A stretch of DNA of 64,000 nt from Kangsaoukella pontilimi (GTDB lineage: Bacteria; Pseudomonadota; Alphaproteobacteria; Rhodobacterales; Rhodobacteraceae), in contig NZ_WUPT01000001.1 of the NCBI RefSeq assembly GCF_009830125.1, positions 1,674,001 through 1,738,000 on the forward strand, given 5' to 3'. This document shows, piece by piece, positions 1 to 8,001 of the stretch. The stretch's first letter is position 1. Each line of letters begins with the position of its first letter. A program made the position numbers and the translations under genes. The notes under the pieces were generated by a model. It saw only the letters and a list, made by a program, of their open reading frames with translations, was not told where the DNA came from and did no database searches.

Positions 1-428
1 AGGCCGGCCTCAAGTCTCTCGCCGGTTCGCGCATCAAGAAATAGATTTGACATAAAGAGTTTTGGATCATGCCCTTTGTGGATGCACTGATGGATCTCAT
101 AGCTTGTTATGGGAAGGATACTATAGATAGGTTCGACACTTTTCCTCCCAAGTACTTTTGCAGTTTCATGCTCAAGTTCAGGAACAATGCTACGCAGTTT
201 CAATATGGCTTCAAATCGTGAATTTGCGCCCTCCAAGTGATCCCCTAACCGAAGCACCAAATCAACGTCTGAAGCCATGCTTCCCTGAGGTACAAAGTGC
301 CGTCCGTCGCGGTTTATTAAGCTGCCAAAAATGAATGTATGGTCAAATATTTCATCTACATCGTACTTATCCAGCCAATTCACTATTACATTTTGCACAT
401 CCTTCAAATGAATCGCCTTCTCAACCAT
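1..428 (-). CDS. Nucleotidyltransferase-fold protein, partial (C-terminus outside the window)
   Basis: The first 142 residues are visible. A Gly-Ser pair (about residues 36-37, FGS) is followed by SDVDLVL (about residues 54-60). This is the GS plus D-x-D signature of the nucleotidyltransferase fold used by minimal nucleotidyltransferases of toxin-antitoxin pairs and by cGAS/DncV-like enzymes. The gap between GS and the aspartates is longer than usual, so the subfamily cannot be named. The ATG lies inside the end of the upstream gene (8-nt overlap, ATGGTTGA), so translation is probably coupled. The region is AT-rich compared with the chromosome, suggesting recent transfer. Candidate roles are antitoxin nucleotidyltransferase or second-messenger synthase in phage defence; neither is shown. 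Confidence 0.6.
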   Translation of the reverse strand, partial: MVEKAIHLKDVQNVIVNWLDKYDVDEIFDHTFIFGSLINRDGRHFVPQGSMASDVDLVLRLGDHLEGANSRFEAILKLRSIVPELEHETAKVLGRKSVEPIYSILPITSYEIHQCIHKGHDPKLFMSNLFLDARTGERLEAG

Positions 429-1026
429 CTTTTTCCTCCAACCCACGACACGACGAAAATACTATGTTTTCTAGCAATAGCGCGAAGTGATGAGGACCAA
501 AAGTGCGGTTCCTCATTGAGTAAGTGATGTAGTTTGAGAAGAACTCATCCTCAAAATTCATATATCTAAGTGCAAACTTCCAGAAGCAATCCACGCCGTC
601 ACACTCTCCCGCTGCGGCCAGGGAGCAGTTGCGATAGACGTGATCTTGAAAACCACCATATTTGCGGTGTCCAGCGACAATCTCCAAAGCAAATTGGAAA
701 GCTACTCTCTCGTTTATGTTGACAGCATCTTCAATTGAAATGGTTTTGTAGGTCGCATCATCTTCAAGTGTTTGCATCTTTACTGGTTTGAGCTTCCGGA
801 TCCAGAAGCCCCAATAGCCAGCCCATTTTGCAATGGAAACCGATCCGCGCTGCTGCTTGTCTACACGATAGATGTCTCTGAGGAAAAACTCCGACACCTC
901 GAGCAAAATATCTTTGTCGATAGAGGCTTCGTTGGGCTCGACGCTCAACGAAGCCAAGATCTCGTTGATTATTCTATAAGATCGGTCAGCGAAGAACCCG
1001 ATCTCGTTGGTAGGCAACGAGTTCAT
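421..1026 (-). CDS. Hypothetical protein, possible HEPN-like partner of the nucleotidyltransferase
   Basis: A 201-residue protein I do not recognise by family. It is predicted soluble, rich in aromatic residues and helical. Near its C-terminus it carries RNRTFGPH, which fits the loose R-x4-6-H motif of HEPN ribonucleases with a polar residue after the arginine. The short motif alone is weak evidence. Its 3' end overlaps the nucleotidyltransferase start by 8 nt, the same gene order (HEPN first, nucleotidyltransferase second) as known HEPN/MNT toxin-antitoxin pairs. Base composition is AT-rich. A different defence-type effector is equally possible. Confidence 0.6.
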   Translation of the reverse strand: MNSLPTNEIGFFADRSYRIINEILASLSVEPNEASIDKDILLEVSEFFLRDIYRVDKQQRGSVSIAKWAGYWGFWIRKLKPVKMQTLEDDATYKTISIEDAVNINERVAFQFALEIVAGHRKYGGFQDHVYRNCSLAAAGECDGVDCFWKFALRYMNFEDEFFSNYITYSMRNRTFGPHHFALLLENIVFSSCRGLEEKDG

Positions 1027-1051
1027 TACTCCCTCCCGCTCAATGGAAGGG

Positions 1052-1258
1052 CTATGTTGGTTCTTTGCGTCTCAAACGCTTGAGGACTGTCCCATGAATC
1101 CCGTCCTCTTTCGCAAGATTTCCTACAACCTTTGCGAACGAGTACTTCGTCGGTCCGTCGTTCTTGGGCTCCACAGAACGGTTCTGGCGCAACTCAGAAC
1201 GTCGCTGGAAGTCCTTGAACGTCGCATCGCCCCTTGTATGATTCGGCATCTGCAACAT
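1052..1258 (-). CDS. Small hypothetical basic protein
   Basis: A 68-residue, basic, soluble ORF that ends 25 nt before the start of the 201-residue gene on the same strand. AAGAGG stands just upstream of the ATG at 1258. No motif is recognised. It may be the first gene of the AT-rich cargo operon (for instance a small regulator) or the remnant of a longer gene. Coding status is uncertain. Confidence 0.35.
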   Translation of the reverse strand: MLQMPNHTRGDATFKDFQRRSELRQNRSVEPKNDGPTKYSFAKVVGNLAKEDGIHGTVLKRLRRKEPT

Positions 1259-1622
1259 CTAGCCTCTTGCCCGTGCCACCCATCTACCGCAGGTGCTGTA
1301 AAGCACACTACCCCAACATGTTGTGCACCTCAAACAAAATGCACACATATTAGGTATGTTTGATGGCTCCGGGCACTCCTTTCGCTTCCTCACGCAACCC
1401 TAATGGGCCGTCACTCAACAAAAAAGCCCGCCGGGACGCCCGACGGATTGGTCTTTATGTAATAATTTCGAACGTGGCGTCAACGGACCTGCTGGCACCG
1501 AACGCTCAACCTTGCATGTCCGTAACGCGCAAACGAGTGTGCAGGCGAACCGCTACAATGTTGGCCTACCAGCTAACCGTGAGCGCGTGCGACACGCCTT
1601 CAGCAAAAACCACGTTTGCGGG
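1259..1622. other. Intergenic gap between satellite module and cargo operon
   Basis: No convincing gene on either strand. It contains the terminator of the leftward satellite transcript (1420-1446) and must also hold the promoter of the cargo genes, which I cannot place with confidence. The composition shifts here from GC-rich (right) to AT-rich (left). Confidence 0.5.
1420..1446 (-). terminator. Rho-independent terminator of the leftward satellite operon
   Basis: On the minus strand CCGTCGGG pairs with CCCGGCGG around a 3-nt loop (one G-T pair), followed by GCTTTTTTG. It lies about 180 nt past the end of the 112-residue gene and separates the satellite module from the cargo operon. Confidence 0.8.
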
Positions 1623-1961
1623 TTAACTCTCATACCAACCCGACGTTTTGATCCAATCCGCCAGCCGAGATCTAATGTCATCAGGGAGATCAGGGCGTTC
1701 TTCCCTGATCTGGCGCAACGCCGCCTCACGCTGTTCCGCGTTCTTCCAAGGGATCGGCTCTCTGCCGCTTTGCATCTCCGCGATCAGACCGTCGTCGGGT
1801 GCATCGACGTGGAGCACGCACCCTTCGATGAACGTGCGGACCGTATAGGCCCCCTCAGCGGTCGGCAGCGCCAACACTCCGGACGGGTTCACGAACGAGA
1901 TCGAAAACGCGCCGGTGGGCGGCCTCCCATCCGCGATCCGCTGCATCTCACTCTTCGGCAT
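1623..1961 (-). CDS. Small hypothetical protein of the satellite module
   Basis: A 112-residue soluble protein with no recognised domain. The ATG at 1961 (MPKSEMQRIAD) overlaps the end of the TerS-like gene by 14 nt, which favours this start over an upstream one and suggests translational coupling. The C-terminal third is acidic and helical and ends in TSGWYES. It is the last gene before the terminator. Its place beside TerS suggests a packaging or helper-interference role, but that is position-based inference. Confidence 0.55.
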   Translation of the reverse strand: MPKSEMQRIADGRPPTGAFSISFVNPSGVLALPTAEGAYTVRTFIEGCVLHVDAPDDGLIAEMQSGREPIPWKNAEQREAALRQIREERPDLPDDIRSRLADWIKTSGWYES

Positions 1962-2538
1962 CGTACAGCTCCTCGATGATCTCGGCGTCCTCCATGCCAT
2001 AAGAATCCGCCGAGAGCTCCGGGCGCACCAGCCGAGGCGCCGTGGGCGGCACCTGTGCCACTACAGCCTCGTTCACGTTCTGGATGGCAATGCTCGTCCC
2101 CTCCCCGCCATCGAGTTGCTGCCTGTACTCGCGCCTTGCGTCGATCACACCTTTAAGCGGGAGCCGGCTAACCATGACCGGCTCGAAGTCGTCGTCGAGG
2201 ACGAGGTTGCCGTCGTCATCGATCAAGGGCTCGAGGTTGCGTTCGAGGTGGCTACGGACGTGCCGGTCCGCAAGGTCCACCATCTCCATCGCCCTGTTCC
2301 TCCGGGCGTCGTCTATGCGGGCGGCAAGCTCGGCGGCAAACCGGGCATCCCGGATTCTTTCGCGATGGACGGCGTGGAAAGATACGCCCAGTTCACGGCA
2401 GGCGCGTGTGATGACCCCGCCCTGGCGGTCAAGTTCCTCGAACAGTTCCTCGCGCATGTCCTCGAAGGACATCACGCTCGCATTGCCTGCCTGGCGCTCC
2501 TTCGGAGGCTGCATGATGGCAGTGGCTCTATTGGGCAT
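1948..2538 (-). CDS. Phage terminase small subunit-like protein (TerS)
   Basis: A 196-residue protein with an N-terminal helix-turn-helix (about residues 25-70; ITRACRELGVSFHAVHRER) of the kind seen in phage small terminases, which recognise pac/cos DNA and load the large subunit. A longer helical and acidic C-terminal part follows. The start at 2538 is chosen because CGGAG lies 8 nt upstream; an in-frame ATG at 2583 lacks a good ribosome site. No large terminase is nearby. In PICIs an island TerS redirects a helper's packaging to island DNA; that function here is inference. A non-terminase HTH regulator is the alternative. Confidence 0.6.
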   Translation of the reverse strand: MPNRATAIMQPPKERQAGNASVMSFEDMREELFEELDRQGGVITRACRELGVSFHAVHRERIRDARFAAELAARIDDARRNRAMEMVDLADRHVRSHLERNLEPLIDDDGNLVLDDDFEPVMVSRLPLKGVIDARREYRQQLDGGEGTSIAIQNVNEAVVAQVPPTAPRLVRPELSADSYGMEDAEIIEELYDAEE

Positions 2539-2816
2539 ATGCTGGGCTCCGAAAAAAGGGGGCCAATTCCCCTTCATCGTCATGGCGTTACGAGGGGCGC
2601 CTGATCGGTCGTCAGATGTCGCTGGCGAAGATTTCAGCTACGCTCGTCTCGCACATCATGGATACCGCATTCGCCAGTTCCGTCGAACCAGCACTTGCAG
2701 CCCCGCAGACCGCGAAGTCACGTTGCCAACCCAAGACAAGAAGGGGATTGACTGTATGTCTTACCCTTTTCGAAGCGATTTCAGCGATTTGAGCCAATCA
2801 AGACAGCAAGGCACCT
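2539..2816. other. Intergenic region left of the repeat cluster
   Basis: Two minus-strand ORFs of about 60 codons exist here (2612-2797 and 2798-2983) but neither has a motif, a good ribosome site or a clear operon link. I see no gene. One near-match to the neighbouring repeat (AAGTCACG at 2715-2722) is present. Confidence 0.4.
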
Positions 2817-3058
2817 AAGTCACCGAGCCCAAGGTCCGAGGAACACACGAGCGAGTTGTCCGCCCCATCGAACGCTCCACTGCCGCAAAAAGAAACAGAA
2901 CTCGCGACAACCTGTAATTCTAGGTGACTTGATGACTTACTCTCGAAGAACACCATAAAAACAAGGAACAAATCTAAAGCCACCTCGCCAAGTCGGCTGG
3001 CAAGTCGCCACGATTAAATGGCGACTTGCATGGCTCAGTTCACTGCCTGGAAGTCGGC
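2817..3058. repeat. Iteron-like cluster, possible satellite replication origin
   Basis: Six copies of AAGTC(A/G)(C/G)C on the two strands: 2817-2824, 2923-2930 (inverted), 2990-2997, 3002-3009, 3020-3027 (inverted) and 3051-3058. The copies at 3000-3029 form a perfect 11-bp inverted repeat around an AT-rich 8-bp spacer. The cluster abuts the 3' end of the primase-helicase gene. P4-type satellites replicate from repeat-bearing sites bound by their own primase-helicase. Origin function is inference; the hairpin could instead end the primase transcript, though it has no T-tract. Confidence 0.45.
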
Positions 3059-5233
3059 GAGGGTGTCGTAGCCCTCCATCTCCATCCATGCCCGTGTCCG
3101 TTCCGTCGGCCCGGCATTCTCCCACTTCTCGTGGTTCCGGCAGGACCAGACGACGACCTTGGGCAGCCCTTCATTCGTCTGCCGCGTGTGCTTTACGCAC
3201 CCGACCGCCTTCAGTGCGAGCGTCAGGTTCGACTTATGCGAACGGCCAGACAGCATTCCCCATGCGTCGTCGAACCGGAACAGGTCGTTTGCCATCGGAC
3301 CGGTGCCCGACGCCATCCATTCCCGGACCGTCGACTCGACGTCAGTGAGAGACGCCTCCCGCATCGCAGCCTTGGCCGCCGTCTCCGGCGCCCTGCCCTT
3401 CGGGTTCAGCGCAGGCTCGTGCGCCTGCAGACGACGAAGCCAGCGCGCCGGACCGTCACCTTCGATGAAGTCGAACAGGCGGCTGTAGTAGGCGTCATCG
3501 CGCGGCTCGGCAGGCGAGAACAGGACCAGCCACCGCCGGTCCCCCTCCTCAAGCCGCACCGCGTTCTCGTGGTTGGTGAAGCAGAGCATGTTGAGATGGT
3601 TCGGGATGGAGTAGAGCGGCGCGCCCTTATCCTCGATCCGCAGCGTTTCATTCGTGATGACAGGCTTCAGCTTGTTCGCCAGTTCGAGGCGGCCGTTCAT
3701 CATGAGTTCTTCGACCAACGCCAGCGAGGCGCCCTCCTGCCACTTGGTCCACTGGCTCTTCAGTTCATCGGGGCTAGGCTCGGCCACGTTTGCAGTTCCG
3801 ACGATCCGCTTCATCAGCGTGCCGACAGCTGTCTTGCCCGTTCCCTGCATCCCCTGAAGCAGCAGCGCGAAGTGAATTTTCACCTCGGGCTTTACGCATG
3901 CGAAGTGCATGAAGTCGATCAGGTGGCCCCGCTCGACCGGATCGGGCAGCAGGTACGCGAGGTGCTCTTCGATCACCGAGACATCGCCCTCGGCCGGCTC
4001 GATGCGCGACGGCCGCCAGATGTTGTAGGTCGAGTCGCCGATCAGCTCCGGCTTACCTGGTATGTACGCGAGGCTTTCGAAGCGCCGCACGGGCGTCTTG
4101 CTTCTCCAGACTTTGTTCAGGAGGCTGCCCTCCGGCTCGAGGTCGGCGAACAGACTGTTCCACTGGTCCTTGTTGAACTGTTTCAGGTCGGACCGGCGGA
4201 TGAACCTCGATGCGTCCGCGACCCAGACCCAGTTCCTCAGAACTCCGGTCGGCGACGGATCTTCATCGTCAGTTTCTATGACGTCGGCATCATCCTCGAA
4301 ATCCTCGGCAGGAGACGGACGTGCTGGCAGCTTCGTCCACGCCTTCTCGAGCGCATCTTTCAGCGCCTGGCCCTGATACTTGCCGTCGGCAGCGCCGTTT
4401 TTCGTCCATGCTGACGTATAGGGCTCGAGCGTTTCGAGACAGGCGTCGAACGAGAGGCCGTTCATCTTCATCCGTCCGACGACGGCGAAGAACTCCGCCG
4501 AACGGTCGTCCGGATCCTCGATCAGCCTTTGCTCGAGCCACGGCCAGAGGGCAGCGTCGGCCCCGTGCCAGTCCGGGACCCTGCCTTCGGTCCGATCGAA
4601 GGCGGGGTCGCGCTCAGCGGTCGATGAAGTGCGATAGGCGGCGAGGTCAGCAGCCGTCATGACGTCGCCGGAGGCGCCCTCGATCACGTGCTCGAGGATC
4701 AGCGCCGCCGAGTTCTGGTTCAGGCGTACCTGACCGCCCCACGAGCGCAGATCGCCGTGTGCCTCGCCTTCGAGGAAGTACCCCGTCCGGAACTTCCAGT
4801 TTCCGACCGCTGCCGGATCGTCACAGCGGACCCATACATGGCCCTTGTTTTTTGCACCGCTTGTCGACGGCGTGACGCAGGCCACGACGTCACCGTGTGC
4901 CTCTCTCAGCGCCTCCGCCGCCGCTTCGGGTCCATCGCCCTCGTCGCAGTCGAACACCACGCATCCGAGCGATCCGGGCTGGATGCCCACCGAATTCGCC
5001 GCCGAGTTACGCAGGTGCCTGAGTACCTCTTCGAGCGTCGGCCTAAGGTTGGGCCAGTTCTTCCGGAACGCACGTTTGTCACGCAGCAGGACGAACGCCG
5101 GCTCGAGGAAGCGGTCTTCAGACGCCTCCCACAGGTTTGTCAGAGTGGTCTCGAAGTTCTCCGGAAACGCGGTCTCCGCCGGTGCCTTCGAGGGTTCGCG
5201 GGTCTTTTGGTCTTGAGTATCATGATGGGGCAC
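3035..5233 (-). CDS. Replicative primase-helicase (AEP primase plus SF3-type helicase)
   Basis: About 732 residues. The N-terminal part looks like an archaeo-eukaryotic primase/polymerase domain: FDCDEGD at residues 94-100 as metal-binding motif I, then a GHVWVR segment and GDLRSWGG. The C-terminal part is a D5/DUF5906-type helicase with Walker A GMQGTGKT (461-468), an acidic Walker B-like LVEEL, an NMLCFTN sensor segment and DRRW arginines. Together these synthesise primers and unwind DNA to replicate the element. GTG at 5233 is preferred because GAGGAG lies 9 nt upstream; GTG at 5257 is an alternative. The downstream side has the candidate iterons. Confidence 0.85.
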   Translation of the reverse strand: MPHHDTQDQKTREPSKAPAETAFPENFETTLTNLWEASEDRFLEPAFVLLRDKRAFRKNWPNLRPTLEEVLRHLRNSAANSVGIQPGSLGCVVFDCDEGDGPEAAAEALREAHGDVVACVTPSTSGAKNKGHVWVRCDDPAAVGNWKFRTGYFLEGEAHGDLRSWGGQVRLNQNSAALILEHVIEGASGDVMTAADLAAYRTSSTAERDPAFDRTEGRVPDWHGADAALWPWLEQRLIEDPDDRSAEFFAVVGRMKMNGLSFDACLETLEPYTSAWTKNGAADGKYQGQALKDALEKAWTKLPARPSPAEDFEDDADVIETDDEDPSPTGVLRNWVWVADASRFIRRSDLKQFNKDQWNSLFADLEPEGSLLNKVWRSKTPVRRFESLAYIPGKPELIGDSTYNIWRPSRIEPAEGDVSVIEEHLAYLLPDPVERGHLIDFMHFACVKPEVKIHFALLLQGMQGTGKTAVGTLMKRIVGTANVAEPSPDELKSQWTKWQEGASLALVEELMMNGRLELANKLKPVITNETLRIEDKGAPLYSIPNHLNMLCFTNHENAVRLEEGDRRWLVLFSPAEPRDDAYYSRLFDFIEGDGPARWLRRLQAHEPALNPKGRAPETAAKAAMREASLTDVESTVREWMASGTGPMANDLFRFDDAWGMLSGRSHKSNLTLALKAVGCVKHTRQTNEGLPKVVVWSCRNHEKWENAGPTERTRAWMEMEGYDTLADFQAVN

Positions 5234-5398
5234 AGGACAGTGCTCCTCTAACTGCACGGATCAGGGGGCGTCGGCGGTCAGGGCCGGCGCCTCATCCGTT
5301 GGTTTCGGTTCACTGTCATCTCGGTCTGCGAGACCGAGTCATGCGGTCAAAATGACCGGCTGATTTCAATACAAAAGCAGTCCTTTGCGTGTCAATCC

Positions 5399-5677
5399 TC
5401 ATTTAGACCCCCGCGCATTCATCCACTCGTCGAGGCGCTTTACCTCATAGCGCACCGTCCGGCCCTGACGTGCGAAAGGCGGCCCTCCGCCCTTGGTGCG
5501 CCAGTGCTCGAGTGTCCTCACCCCGACCGCGAGATGCTCTGCCGCCTGCTCGGGCGTGAGCCATCGCACCGCATCAGCCGGAGACACCGAAACAGCCATA
5601 GCCTCCGCCATCTCAAGCGCCTCCAGCCGGTCCAGTACCGCGTCGATTTTCTCCTCAAGCCTCTCAATCAAGCCCAT
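5399..5677 (-). CDS. AlpA/excisionase-like helix-turn-helix protein
   Basis: A 92-residue protein: a short N-terminal coiled coil (about residues 4-25, ERLEEKIDAVLDRLEALE) followed by a MerR/HTH_17-type winged helix (LTPEQAAEHLAVGVRTLEHW, ending VKRLDEWM). This fold is typical of excisionases and of AlpA, which turns on satellite genes. ATG at 5677 has GGAG 9 nt upstream; GTG at 5698 is an alternative. The gene lies between integrase and primase, the usual place of the regulatory switch. An inverted pair of TCAAAATG octamers flanks it (5347-5354 and 5709-5716). Confidence 0.75.
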   Translation of the reverse strand: MGLIERLEEKIDAVLDRLEALEMAEAMAVSVSPADAVRWLTPEQAAEHLAVGVRTLEHWRTKGGGPPFARQGRTVRYEVKRLDEWMNARGSK

Positions 5678-5762
5678 GGTCCGCACTCCATTCGTCACCA
5701 GTCAGGACCATTTTGAGCCACGGAGGGCTGGGCTGCGAACCATCAGTCGGGCTTGATGGAGT

Positions 5763-6902
5763 TCAGTCGCGGAAGGAAAGAAGATGTTCCGCCACACGTT
5801 CAGTCGCTTCGACTACGGGCTTCGTGACCTTATCCCGCGACACGTATCTGGAGGTCGTCGTCTTGCCGAGCTGGGAATGGTTAAGGCAGAGGCTGATCGT
5901 CGACATCTCGACGCCGAGGTCGAGCGCGCGAGTTGCCCAGGAGTGCCGCAACGCGTGCGGGGGCGGAAACCCGGCGTCGCCGGTCCGAAGATGCGGGATG
6001 TGCCCGCTCTTCGAGTTGGCAGGAAAAAGGAAAGGCGACCAGGGCGCAGCTTCTCTGATCGAATGAAGCTCGGAGCACAGCGCCTTTGGCAGAGCGCGGG
6101 TGAAGGCGCGATCCCGCCCGCCTTTGGGCGATGCGATCCATGCCGTGCCTGCGTCGAGATCGATGCTCTCCCACCTGAGCGACAGCGCCTCAGAAAGCCG
6201 CAGGCCGGTCAGTGCCAAGGAAATCCACGCCGTGGCCCTTACGCGGTTTTCCATGGCATCCACAGCGCGCCAAAGTGATCGGAATGCATCGTCGTCGAGT
6301 GCCCAGTCCCTTGGCGTCTCTTTGTTCGGCCTGATGGCCCGCGCCCACACGTTCCCCTCTGAGAGTTCGTCGGACCTGAGGTAGTCGGCCCAGAGGGCCC
6401 GACCCGTGCGATACATTGAATTCGCCCCGTAAGCTCCCTTGCGGCTCACGCGCTCGAAGTGCGAGCGGACATCCTGCCGCGTGATCCTATCCATAGGCAT
6501 TCGCGCAAGCCGGCCCATCCGCTTGAGACAATCACGATAATAGACGAGCGTCCTCGGGCTGAGGTTCGGGCGGTTCTCAAGGTAGCGCTCCAGATACTCC
6601 TCGACCGTAGGAGCATCCTTGTTTCGCTTTCTTTCATCTCTTGGATCTTCCCCCCGAGAAAGGCGGACCTTGAGGGAGCGCGCCTCGTTCCTCGCCTCCT
6701 TAAGCGAGATGCAGTCCGCCCTGCCGATGGTCAGGGTCAAAGGGGTCGAGCGACCGTCATTTACGGTGCCTTTGTAGCGGTAGCTGCCAGAGCGCTTGCC
6801 TACTTTAAGCACGAGCCCCGGAACCTCTTCATCATAGAGTGTCGCTCCTGAGCCCTCGCGGGTCGCCCGGTCGACCACACCTTGAGTCAACTTGATCGTC
6901 AT
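5763..6902 (-). CDS. int: Tyrosine-type site-specific integrase
   Basis: A 379-residue phage-type tyrosine recombinase. It has an N-terminal arm-binding domain (DUF4102-like), a core-binding SAM-like domain, and a catalytic domain with Arg in TGLRLSEAL (R235), H316 and R319 in HALRHSW, H342 and the nucleophile Y353 in TSRYVS. It integrates and excises the island at the tRNA-Gly(CCC) gene. The start at 6902 has GGAGGA 5-6 nt upstream; the ATG at 6968 adds 22 residues without a ribosome site. The gene lies about 1 kb from the right attachment site and reads away from it. Confidence 0.93.
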   Translation of the reverse strand: MTIKLTQGVVDRATREGSGATLYDEEVPGLVLKVGKRSGSYRYKGTVNDGRSTPLTLTIGRADCISLKEARNEARSLKVRLSRGEDPRDERKRNKDAPTVEEYLERYLENRPNLSPRTLVYYRDCLKRMGRLARMPMDRITRQDVRSHFERVSRKGAYGANSMYRTGRALWADYLRSDELSEGNVWARAIRPNKETPRDWALDDDAFRSLWRAVDAMENRVRATAWISLALTGLRLSEALSLRWESIDLDAGTAWIASPKGGRDRAFTRALPKALCSELHSIREAAPWSPFLFPANSKSGHIPHLRTGDAGFPPPHALRHSWATRALDLGVEMSTISLCLNHSQLGKTTTSRYVSRDKVTKPVVEATERVAEHLLSFRD

Positions 6903-7064
6903 CCGTTCCTCCGTGGCATAAGATGCGGCAATCTGTGCCCGGTCCGAAATTTTCTTCGATCGGGTCACTTTGGGTTAAACAGAGAAATTATGGCGAGTTC
7001 ACAGTGCTTTGCGGACCACCAATCAGGTCGATGCCGTACTAAGCCGAGCTTTGAAGGGAAGTAG

Positions 7065-7757
7065 ATGGAGATCATCAAGAACGAGGCTGAAGACGGAAAG
7101 GTCTTCGTGAACAAGTTGGCGGCCGCGGAACGTCAGCTTTCTGCTGCCATCAGGATGTACTTCATGGAAGAGGACCCCCTCGCAATTCACACCGTCGCCT
7201 CCGCCGCAATGAACCTCTATGCCGATCTCTTGAAGCGTCGAGGAAAGGACCCCGCTATCTTCGGCATCGTTTATGGGCTGCTACGGGCAGCGAGAGATTA
7301 CATCGACGGCAATTTGGCGAAAGAAGACGTGGAAAAATGGGGAGACGGCGCTTTTGAGGCTCTTGAGCCCTTTATTGAGATGCTGCGCAACGATCCTGAG
7401 CTGAACGTCGATGAGATCCGGGTTTCGGGACCGCCTGCCTACGTGCAGGAGTTCTGGAGAGAGAAGAGGAAGTCATACAATTTCCTTAAGCATGCGGATC
7501 GCGACCACGCTAAACTTCTCGATCAGGCTCACTTGAACAACGAAGATCTGATATTTCAAGCTATCGGGTGCGCCGCTCATCTAAATTGCGAAATGACGCA
7601 TGAGAAGGAGATGTTCTTTGCTGCGATGGTAGTATTGGGGAAGTTAAAGAAACCGGACTGGGATTCGGAACTCATAAGCGCCATGACTGCACACCCGCCC
7701 GATGAAATGATGCGTCGCGCACGAAAAGTGCTCTGTTACTCACGCGTAGATGACTAG
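7065..7757 (+). CDS. Hypothetical protein, island cargo
   Basis: A 230-residue soluble, mostly helical protein of unknown function, on the opposite strand to the integrase and between it and the right attachment site. AAGGGAAG precedes the ATG. It contains NFLKHADRD (about residues 144-152), a motif I associate with a family of uncharacterised proteobacterial proteins. This spot, next to integrase, is a usual cargo position in satellites. I cannot assign a role. Confidence 0.7.
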   Translation: MEIIKNEAEDGKVFVNKLAAAERQLSAAIRMYFMEEDPLAIHTVASAAMNLYADLLKRRGKDPAIFGIVYGLLRAARDYIDGNLAKEDVEKWGDGAFEALEPFIEMLRNDPELNVDEIRVSGPPAYVQEFWREKRKSYNFLKHADRDHAKLLDQAHLNNEDLIFQAIGCAAHLNCEMTHEKEMFFAAMVVLGKLKKPDWDSELISAMTAHPPDEMMRRARKVLCYSRVDD

Positions 7758-7957
7758 CAAAAGATCACGGTTGGAGCGGTTGCAGACCCCCGGCTTTGCC
7801 TAGAATTTTGCCCAGCATAGTACCCAGTTCAAGGCCGTTCTAAGTTGGGTAGAGATGGACAATTCTCTTGGTTTTCCTATTTCTAACAGACACTTATCCG
7901 CCCCCGAGGAAGCCGTAGCTGTGTTTAGTCGTAGATGTTTGCACTGGCACGCAACGA

Positions 7958-8001
7958 TTCCCAAGCTTAAGACGAGGGTTCGATTCCCTTCACCCGCTCC
8001 A
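7958..8001 (+). repeat. Right attachment site: 3' half of a tRNA-Gly(CCC) gene
   Basis: The 44 bp run from the CCC anticodon loop through variable region, T-arm (GAGGG/CCCTT around TTCGATT), acceptor strand CACCCGC, discriminator T and CCA. The 5' half of a tRNA is missing upstream, so this is not a functional gene but the duplicated att core left by integration. The intact tRNA-Gly(CCC) is predicted at the island's other end, outside the window. Confidence 0.85.

Follow-up and report, generated by a model that had tools for sequence, protein, structure and literature searches.

A 64,000-nucleotide stretch of the Kangsaoukella pontilimi genome (3.69 Mb in 10 contigs), here called the window (C1:1,674,001-1,738,000; its relatives are Rhodobacterales), begins inside an integrative element inserted at the 3' end of a tRNA-Gly(CCC) gene, which was rebuilt by the insertion. 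The element is probably (at roughly two chances in three) a complete integrative phage satellite of PICI-like character that would redirect packaging through a small terminase subunit (TerS) of its own, where the helper, the induction and the packaging are inferred from gene content and from analogy with known satellites. This reading is based on a pair of attachment (att) sites, the rebuilt tRNA, a core of the element's own genes, a gene set free of virion functions, a cargo of defence genes and the recurrence of the same core in other genomes.

The boundaries of the element are given by the following features.

C1:1665983-1666056 (L003:1983-2056), left of the window: intact tRNA-Gly(CCC)
C1:1666013-1666056 (L003:2013-2056), left of the window: attL, the last 44 bp of the intact tRNA-Gly(CCC)
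Window 7958-8001 (C1:1681958-1682001), + strand: attR, 44 bp identical in sequence to the tRNA-Gly(CCC) 3' end

An earlier note on this DNA had confined the element to positions 1-8001, ending in a 44-bp duplicate of a tRNA 3' end, and had proposed that an intact tRNA-Gly(CCC) and a second copy of the repeat be sought to the left. Both were found there, and the right boundary is real, but the proposed span covers only the right half of an element about twice as long and misses most of the defence cargo. The intact-tRNA copy lies 15,945 bp upstream of the copy at 7958-8001. From the positions of the two copies, the element comprises 15,989 bp including both of them (1,666,013-1,682,001), and the circle predicted after its excision measures 15,945 bp. 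A whole-genome search returned two exact copies of the 44-bp sequence in the assembly and no third, and exact repeats on either side of a segment running from a tRNA to an integrase are not a product of chance. An uninterrupted version of the site is present in a relative (G681), where the upstream gene is followed without a break by tRNA-Gly(CCC) and then by the thioesterase gene; in a member of the same genus (G915), the thioesterase gene directly adjoins tRNA-Gly(CCC), although this genome is fragmented and its empty site is complete on one side only. The GC content of the element is 57.2%, against 66.5% and 64.1% in the flanks.

Within the window, the element encodes the following genes, listed from right to left.

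7065-7757, + strand: ORF of 230 aa between the integrase and attR, an accessory gene, unmatched in Pfam, PHROGs, NCBIfam and PADLOC
5763-6968, - strand: integrase, a tyrosine recombinase with an arm-binding domain (PF00589 E=4.5e-16, PF13356 E=3.9e-11)
5399-5698, - strand: AlpA-like excisionase/regulator of HTH_17 type (PF12728 E=2.9e-11, phrog_66 E=7e-11)
3035-5257, - strand: replication protein, prim-pol with a DUF5906/VapE-type helicase (PF19263 E=1e-16, PF09250 E=2.7e-6, phrog_1156 E=8e-38)
1948-2583, - strand: TerS-like protein, an N-terminal HTH followed by a long helix (phrog_4044 E=3.4e-4)
1623-1961, - strand: o125, a small conserved gene that overlaps the end of terS, as its homologues do in G255 and G949
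421-1026, - strand: gene of 201 aa that overlaps the NTase gene, unmatched to any family
1-446, continuing to C1:1673532, - strand: NTase-conflict nucleotidyltransferase of 304 aa (full protein: PF20697 E=1e-115)

The integrase, AlpA-like, primase-helicase and TerS-like genes thus stand in a row at or near the places where they had first been read. The catalytic pattern of the integrase is intact (TGLR, HALR and a Tyr downstream of HSQLGKTTTSR), and the helicase retains its Walker A motif (GMQGTGKT). The overlap of o125 with terS probably reflects translational coupling, to judge from the arrangement of the two frames; the predicted structure of o125 is of poor quality. To the left of the window follow, in order, a 200-aa coiled protein (o200), a 105-aa ORF, an 86-aa ORF (o86) and a Vsr endonuclease, and further left a C5 methyltransferase, a NotI-family restriction enzyme (PF12183 E=6e-97), a ParB/PD-Lambda-5-like protein and an SNF2 helicase, the end of which lies 139 bp from the tRNA. 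From the integrase to o86, the NTase pair included, the genes form a single leftward run. No capsid, portal, tail, large-terminase or lysis family was matched among the 16 ORFs of the element in Pfam or PHROGs; the lack of structural genes reported for the right half therefore holds for the left half, which is likewise without capsid or tail genes. A search of Pfam yielded no relaxase or conjugation gene in the element, which therefore lacks the relaxase, alone or combined with a type IV secretion system, that marks integrative conjugative or mobilisable elements.

The core of integrase, AlpA, primase and TerS-like genes is found again at no fewer than seven further loci in Alphaproteobacteria (G255, G949/L084, G031/L078, G414, L079, L083 and L085), some of which also carry o125, o200 or o86. 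Profiles of the core genes recovered AlpA, primase and TerS-like proteins in G255, G949, G031, G414, L079, L083 and L085, along with o200-like proteins in most of these seven and o125 in G255 and G949. The window integrase is 39-41% identical to the integrases of the related elements, in which homologues of the AlpA-like gene adjoin the integrase, while the window primase is of a type that differs from that of most relatives and its phage matches fall mostly in the generic helicase half. When 293 genomes of the order were searched with TerS, G255 was the sole other match, and a search of 385 genomes of the class added G414 and G629. The integrase, searched against 395 genomes of the family, led to G031, G716 and G949. 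An alignment-based integrase scan of 84,980 species genomes further added Solirhodobacter olei, Cognatishimia maritima, Erythrobacter NAP1, Litoreibacter, Pseudogemmobacter hezensis and one MAG. Single-sequence patterns found no close TerS or primase relatives in IMG/VR. The attachment sites of members are tRNA-Gly or tRNA-Leu(TAA), and one integrase clade is located in gp15, a gene of gene transfer agents (GTAs). In G031 the site is marked by a 37-bp repeat of tRNA-Leu(TAA); L081 has a clear tRNA-Leu 3' half beside its integrase, L079 has a shorter one, and L083 and L085 have short matches only. A 3.4-kb segment of Hasllibacter halocynthiae (L080/G716, L049+L050:19731-23182), bounded by 45-bp repeats of tRNA-Asn(GTT) and encoding a related integrase and a primase-like ORF, is a minimal or decayed relative.

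This recurrence bears on whether the element could be a prophage that has decayed and lost its virion genes. The integrase and primase are of phage type, as such an origin would predict, but both att copies and the core ORFs are intact, the size of about 16 kb is close to that of independent relatives (15.3-15.7 kb), and each of these has the same virion-less gene set. Because the virion-less architecture is conserved, a decayed prophage is very improbable. Among the 45 ORFs of three relatives, the commonest PHROG families were primases, integrases, regulators, TerS and unknowns, and the only virion label among these families was a weak domain-level match in the o86 family.

The assignment of a TerS function is central to the satellite reading. 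For the window protein itself the similarity is weak and does not extend beyond the HTH region; the call is strengthened by relatives, where the TerS-like proteins at the same place match phrog_4044 at E=1e-4 to 1e-9, and by the predicted succession of an HTH and a long helix. In all five element-bearing genomes tested, the TerS-like protein is the genome's only phrog_4044 match. In one further genome (G629), the gene directly preceding that for a terminase large subunit encodes a protein with a strong phrog_4044 match (E=2e-34), which is 40% identical over 65 aa to the TerS-like protein of the G255 element. The predicted fold of the window protein comprises a three-helix HTH and then a 41-residue helix, with a pLDDT of about 90 over residues 41-100 and low confidence for the rest. 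Foldseek searches with this model gave no match below 0.001; the named weak matches in BFVD were repeatedly terminase small subunits, and the small terminase fragment of phage G20c in the PDB was matched at a non-significant E=9.5. No relative of the window TerS was found by tblastn in INPHARED phage records. At least eight elements, differing in cargo and site, have retained the terS-like gene, mostly directly after the primase. Taken together, similarity and modelled fold suggest that the protein likely functions as a TerS. The GTA gp1 of the host was rejected as the source of terS because GTA TerS lacks an HTH domain (PMC6854486) and the gp1 candidate has no match to phrog_4044. A TerS alignment scan of viral contigs gave nine matches. 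In the contigs that were read (L087, L088 and L091), which are small, resemble cfPICIs and encode a portal and capsid-like proteins, the match lies in the portal, which has a short LDDDFEPV-like motif in common with the satellite TerS proteins; these matches were rejected as relatives.

If the TerS-like gene instead encoded an HTH replication or regulatory protein, the element could be an integrative defence island, moved by natural transformation, by generalised transduction or through conjugation of the DNA next to it. The location of the TerS similarity mostly in the HTH region, the lack of significance of the structural matches, the families o86 and o200 with no known function and the failure to find a helper in the genome would all suit such an island. 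It is nevertheless unlikely, though not negligibly so: the terS-like gene persists across the elements just mentioned regardless of cargo and site and is specific to one phage TerS family, a true terS-terL pair (in G629) contains its homologue, and relaxase and conjugation genes are absent.

The element holds at least two defence systems. It carries a NotI-type restriction-modification (R-M) system with Vsr, the NTase-conflict pair and an SNF2/ParB-like pair. The NTase and the overlapping 201-aa ORF (window 1-1026 and L003:9532-10446) probably form a two-gene conflict system, a candidate defence or toxin-antitoxin pair as far as their arrangement indicates. The cargo of other members consists of completely different defence genes: G255 has a type VI retron-like reverse transcriptase together with an HTH gene, and also a ParA/HEPN pair; G949 has PDC-M11A/B; and G414 has a SIR2-APAZ/short Argonaute along with a kinase and a caspase-like protein. 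Variable antiviral cargo is habitual in P4-like satellites, which are hotspots of antiviral systems (PMC9122126). Elsewhere in the host genome, at C1:1806-1818 kb (L076:1630-13300), a second integrase and AlpA-like island with a C5 methyltransferase, ATPase-like and Z1-like proteins, as read by eye, is a probable further defence island.

Comparison with described systems places the element closest to the Gram-negative PICIs (e.g., EcCICFT073), which are about 15 kb in size and have an integrase, an AlpA-like regulator, a primase-type replication protein and sometimes a terS homologue, lack structural and lytic genes, carry phage-resistance cargo and use a specific att site (PMC6092414). The element has the integrase, the AlpA-type regulator and the primase/rep module of a PICI, is free of structural and lytic genes and is near 15 kb. 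It differs in that its host is alphaproteobacterial, in that Int, AlpA and primase all run in the same direction (- strand), in the conserved but unnamed families o125, o200 and o86, and in the lack of a recognised Rpr/Stl repressor; Gram-negative PICIs are also without a clear master repressor (PMC6092414). The layout of the Gram-positive form, with int divergent from xis/pri-rep around a master repressor, is not that of the element. The term PICI-like is apt for the element's probable mode of action, while membership of the PICIs is not established, because the layout differs and because induction and packaging are predicted from gene content.

P4 depends on the terminase and cos sites of its helper. 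The P4-like satellites share with the window element an integrase at a tRNA, an AlpA/Vis-like protein, a primase-helicase and variable anti-phage cargo (PMC8628076), whereas Psu, Delta and Sid had no match among the 16 ORFs of the element in Pfam or PHROGs and a TerS-like gene is present. The earlier description of the element as PICI/P4-like is favoured by the comparison of gene content in its first part and abandoned in its second, because the genes for Psu, Delta and Sid were not found. cfPICI, PICMI and PLE are likewise integrative hitchhikers without full virion genes (PMC11389934), but the window element lacks the HK97-type capsid, protease, portal and both terminase genes of a cfPICI, is larger than a PICMI and has its own TerS, and contains no recognised PLE gene. 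A literature search found no description of the element family or of insertion in gp15, most subscription journals being outside its scope, and the element most likely belongs to a new alphaproteobacterial satellite lineage that is undescribed in the searchable literature.

By analogy with known satellites, a helper phage would trigger AlpA (PMC6092414), and Int together with AlpA would excise the 15.9-kb circle, which the primase-helicase would then replicate. TerS, perhaps with o125, would bind a site on the element through its HTH and pass the element to the large terminase of the helper, so that it would be packaged in helper particles and, on arrival in a new host, be reinserted by Int at tRNA-Gly. 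There, the R-M and NTase systems may guard the recipient cell from other phages and help the element to be retained, and the element may interfere with its helper or with competitors, as known satellites do (PMC6092414). The search for a helper prophage that had been proposed came up empty, as none is obvious in the host genome, which holds only a GTA and one lone HK97 capsid gene; its one Terminase_6 gene adjoins the capsid gene of the GTA. Since satellites often occur without a resident helper (PMC11389934), this result does not decide the satellite reading. The lone HK97 capsid gene (C1:1829-1836 kb, L077:5897-10519) has an HTH gene and a probable integrase nearby, with portal and terminase absent, and is possibly part of a capsid-carrying mini-element.

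The branch that inserts in gp15 connects these elements with GTAs. In G255 (L019+L020), the element lies inside gp15 (GTA_TIM, PF13547) between 13-bp repeats, and joining its flanks restores the gp15 reading frame. In G949 (L051+L052/L084), gp15 is split at the same codon as in G255 (GID/NY), and the gene is cut at the same place in L082, L086, G682 (L122) and the viral contig L097 (near-duplicate L096). The gp15 integrases tested (G255, L082, L084, L086 and L097) form a single clade with 100/100 support. The gp15 branch is represented in culture by Pseudogemmobacter hezensis D13-10-4-6. Among 346 genomes of the family with a GTA_TIM gene, three (G255, G949 and G682) have gp15 split at the att codon, each split gene standing beside an integrase of the gp15 clade or of its type. 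Of twelve further genomes with two GTA_TIM matches, G682 proved to be a true split at this codon, and the other 11 were ruled out, each being one open frame with an internal insertion. In a Rhodobacteraceae MAG (L082:10001-11490), only an integrase and AlpA are left inside gp15, over about 1.5 kb, which suggests a deletion derivative.

GTA particles carry only about 4 kb, too little for a 16-kb element, and insertion in gp15 should stop GTA production; both points argue against the element being a satellite of the GTA rather than of a phage, one that uses the capsid and terminase of the host GTA and has a branch inside gp15. The targeting of a single gp15 codon by one branch would fit such a relationship, as would the terS homologue of G629, which adjoins a Terminase_6-like terL that by eye resembles GTA terL. 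Terminase_6-type packaging genes are common in such hosts, but the element contains no GTA genes, and its protein has an HTH, whereas GTA TerS does not and packages without sequence preference (PMC6854486). With the host gp1 candidate also unmatched to phrog_4044, dependence on the GTA is highly unlikely. One may speculate, with considerable doubt, that in an undescribed satellite family one branch reserves the gp15 codon and thereby acts as a switch on GTA production, silencing the GTA for as long as the element stays integrated and restoring it when the element excises.

Most described phage satellites are from Enterobacterales, Firmicutes and Vibrionaceae. With a named set of core genes for the Alphaproteobacteria, such elements could be detected automatically in the ecologically important Rhodobacterales, whose satellites appear to carry many of the defence systems there, including R-M, retron-type reverse transcriptases and short Argonautes. 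The gp15-inserting branch links satellites directly to GTAs and would explain some broken GTA clusters.
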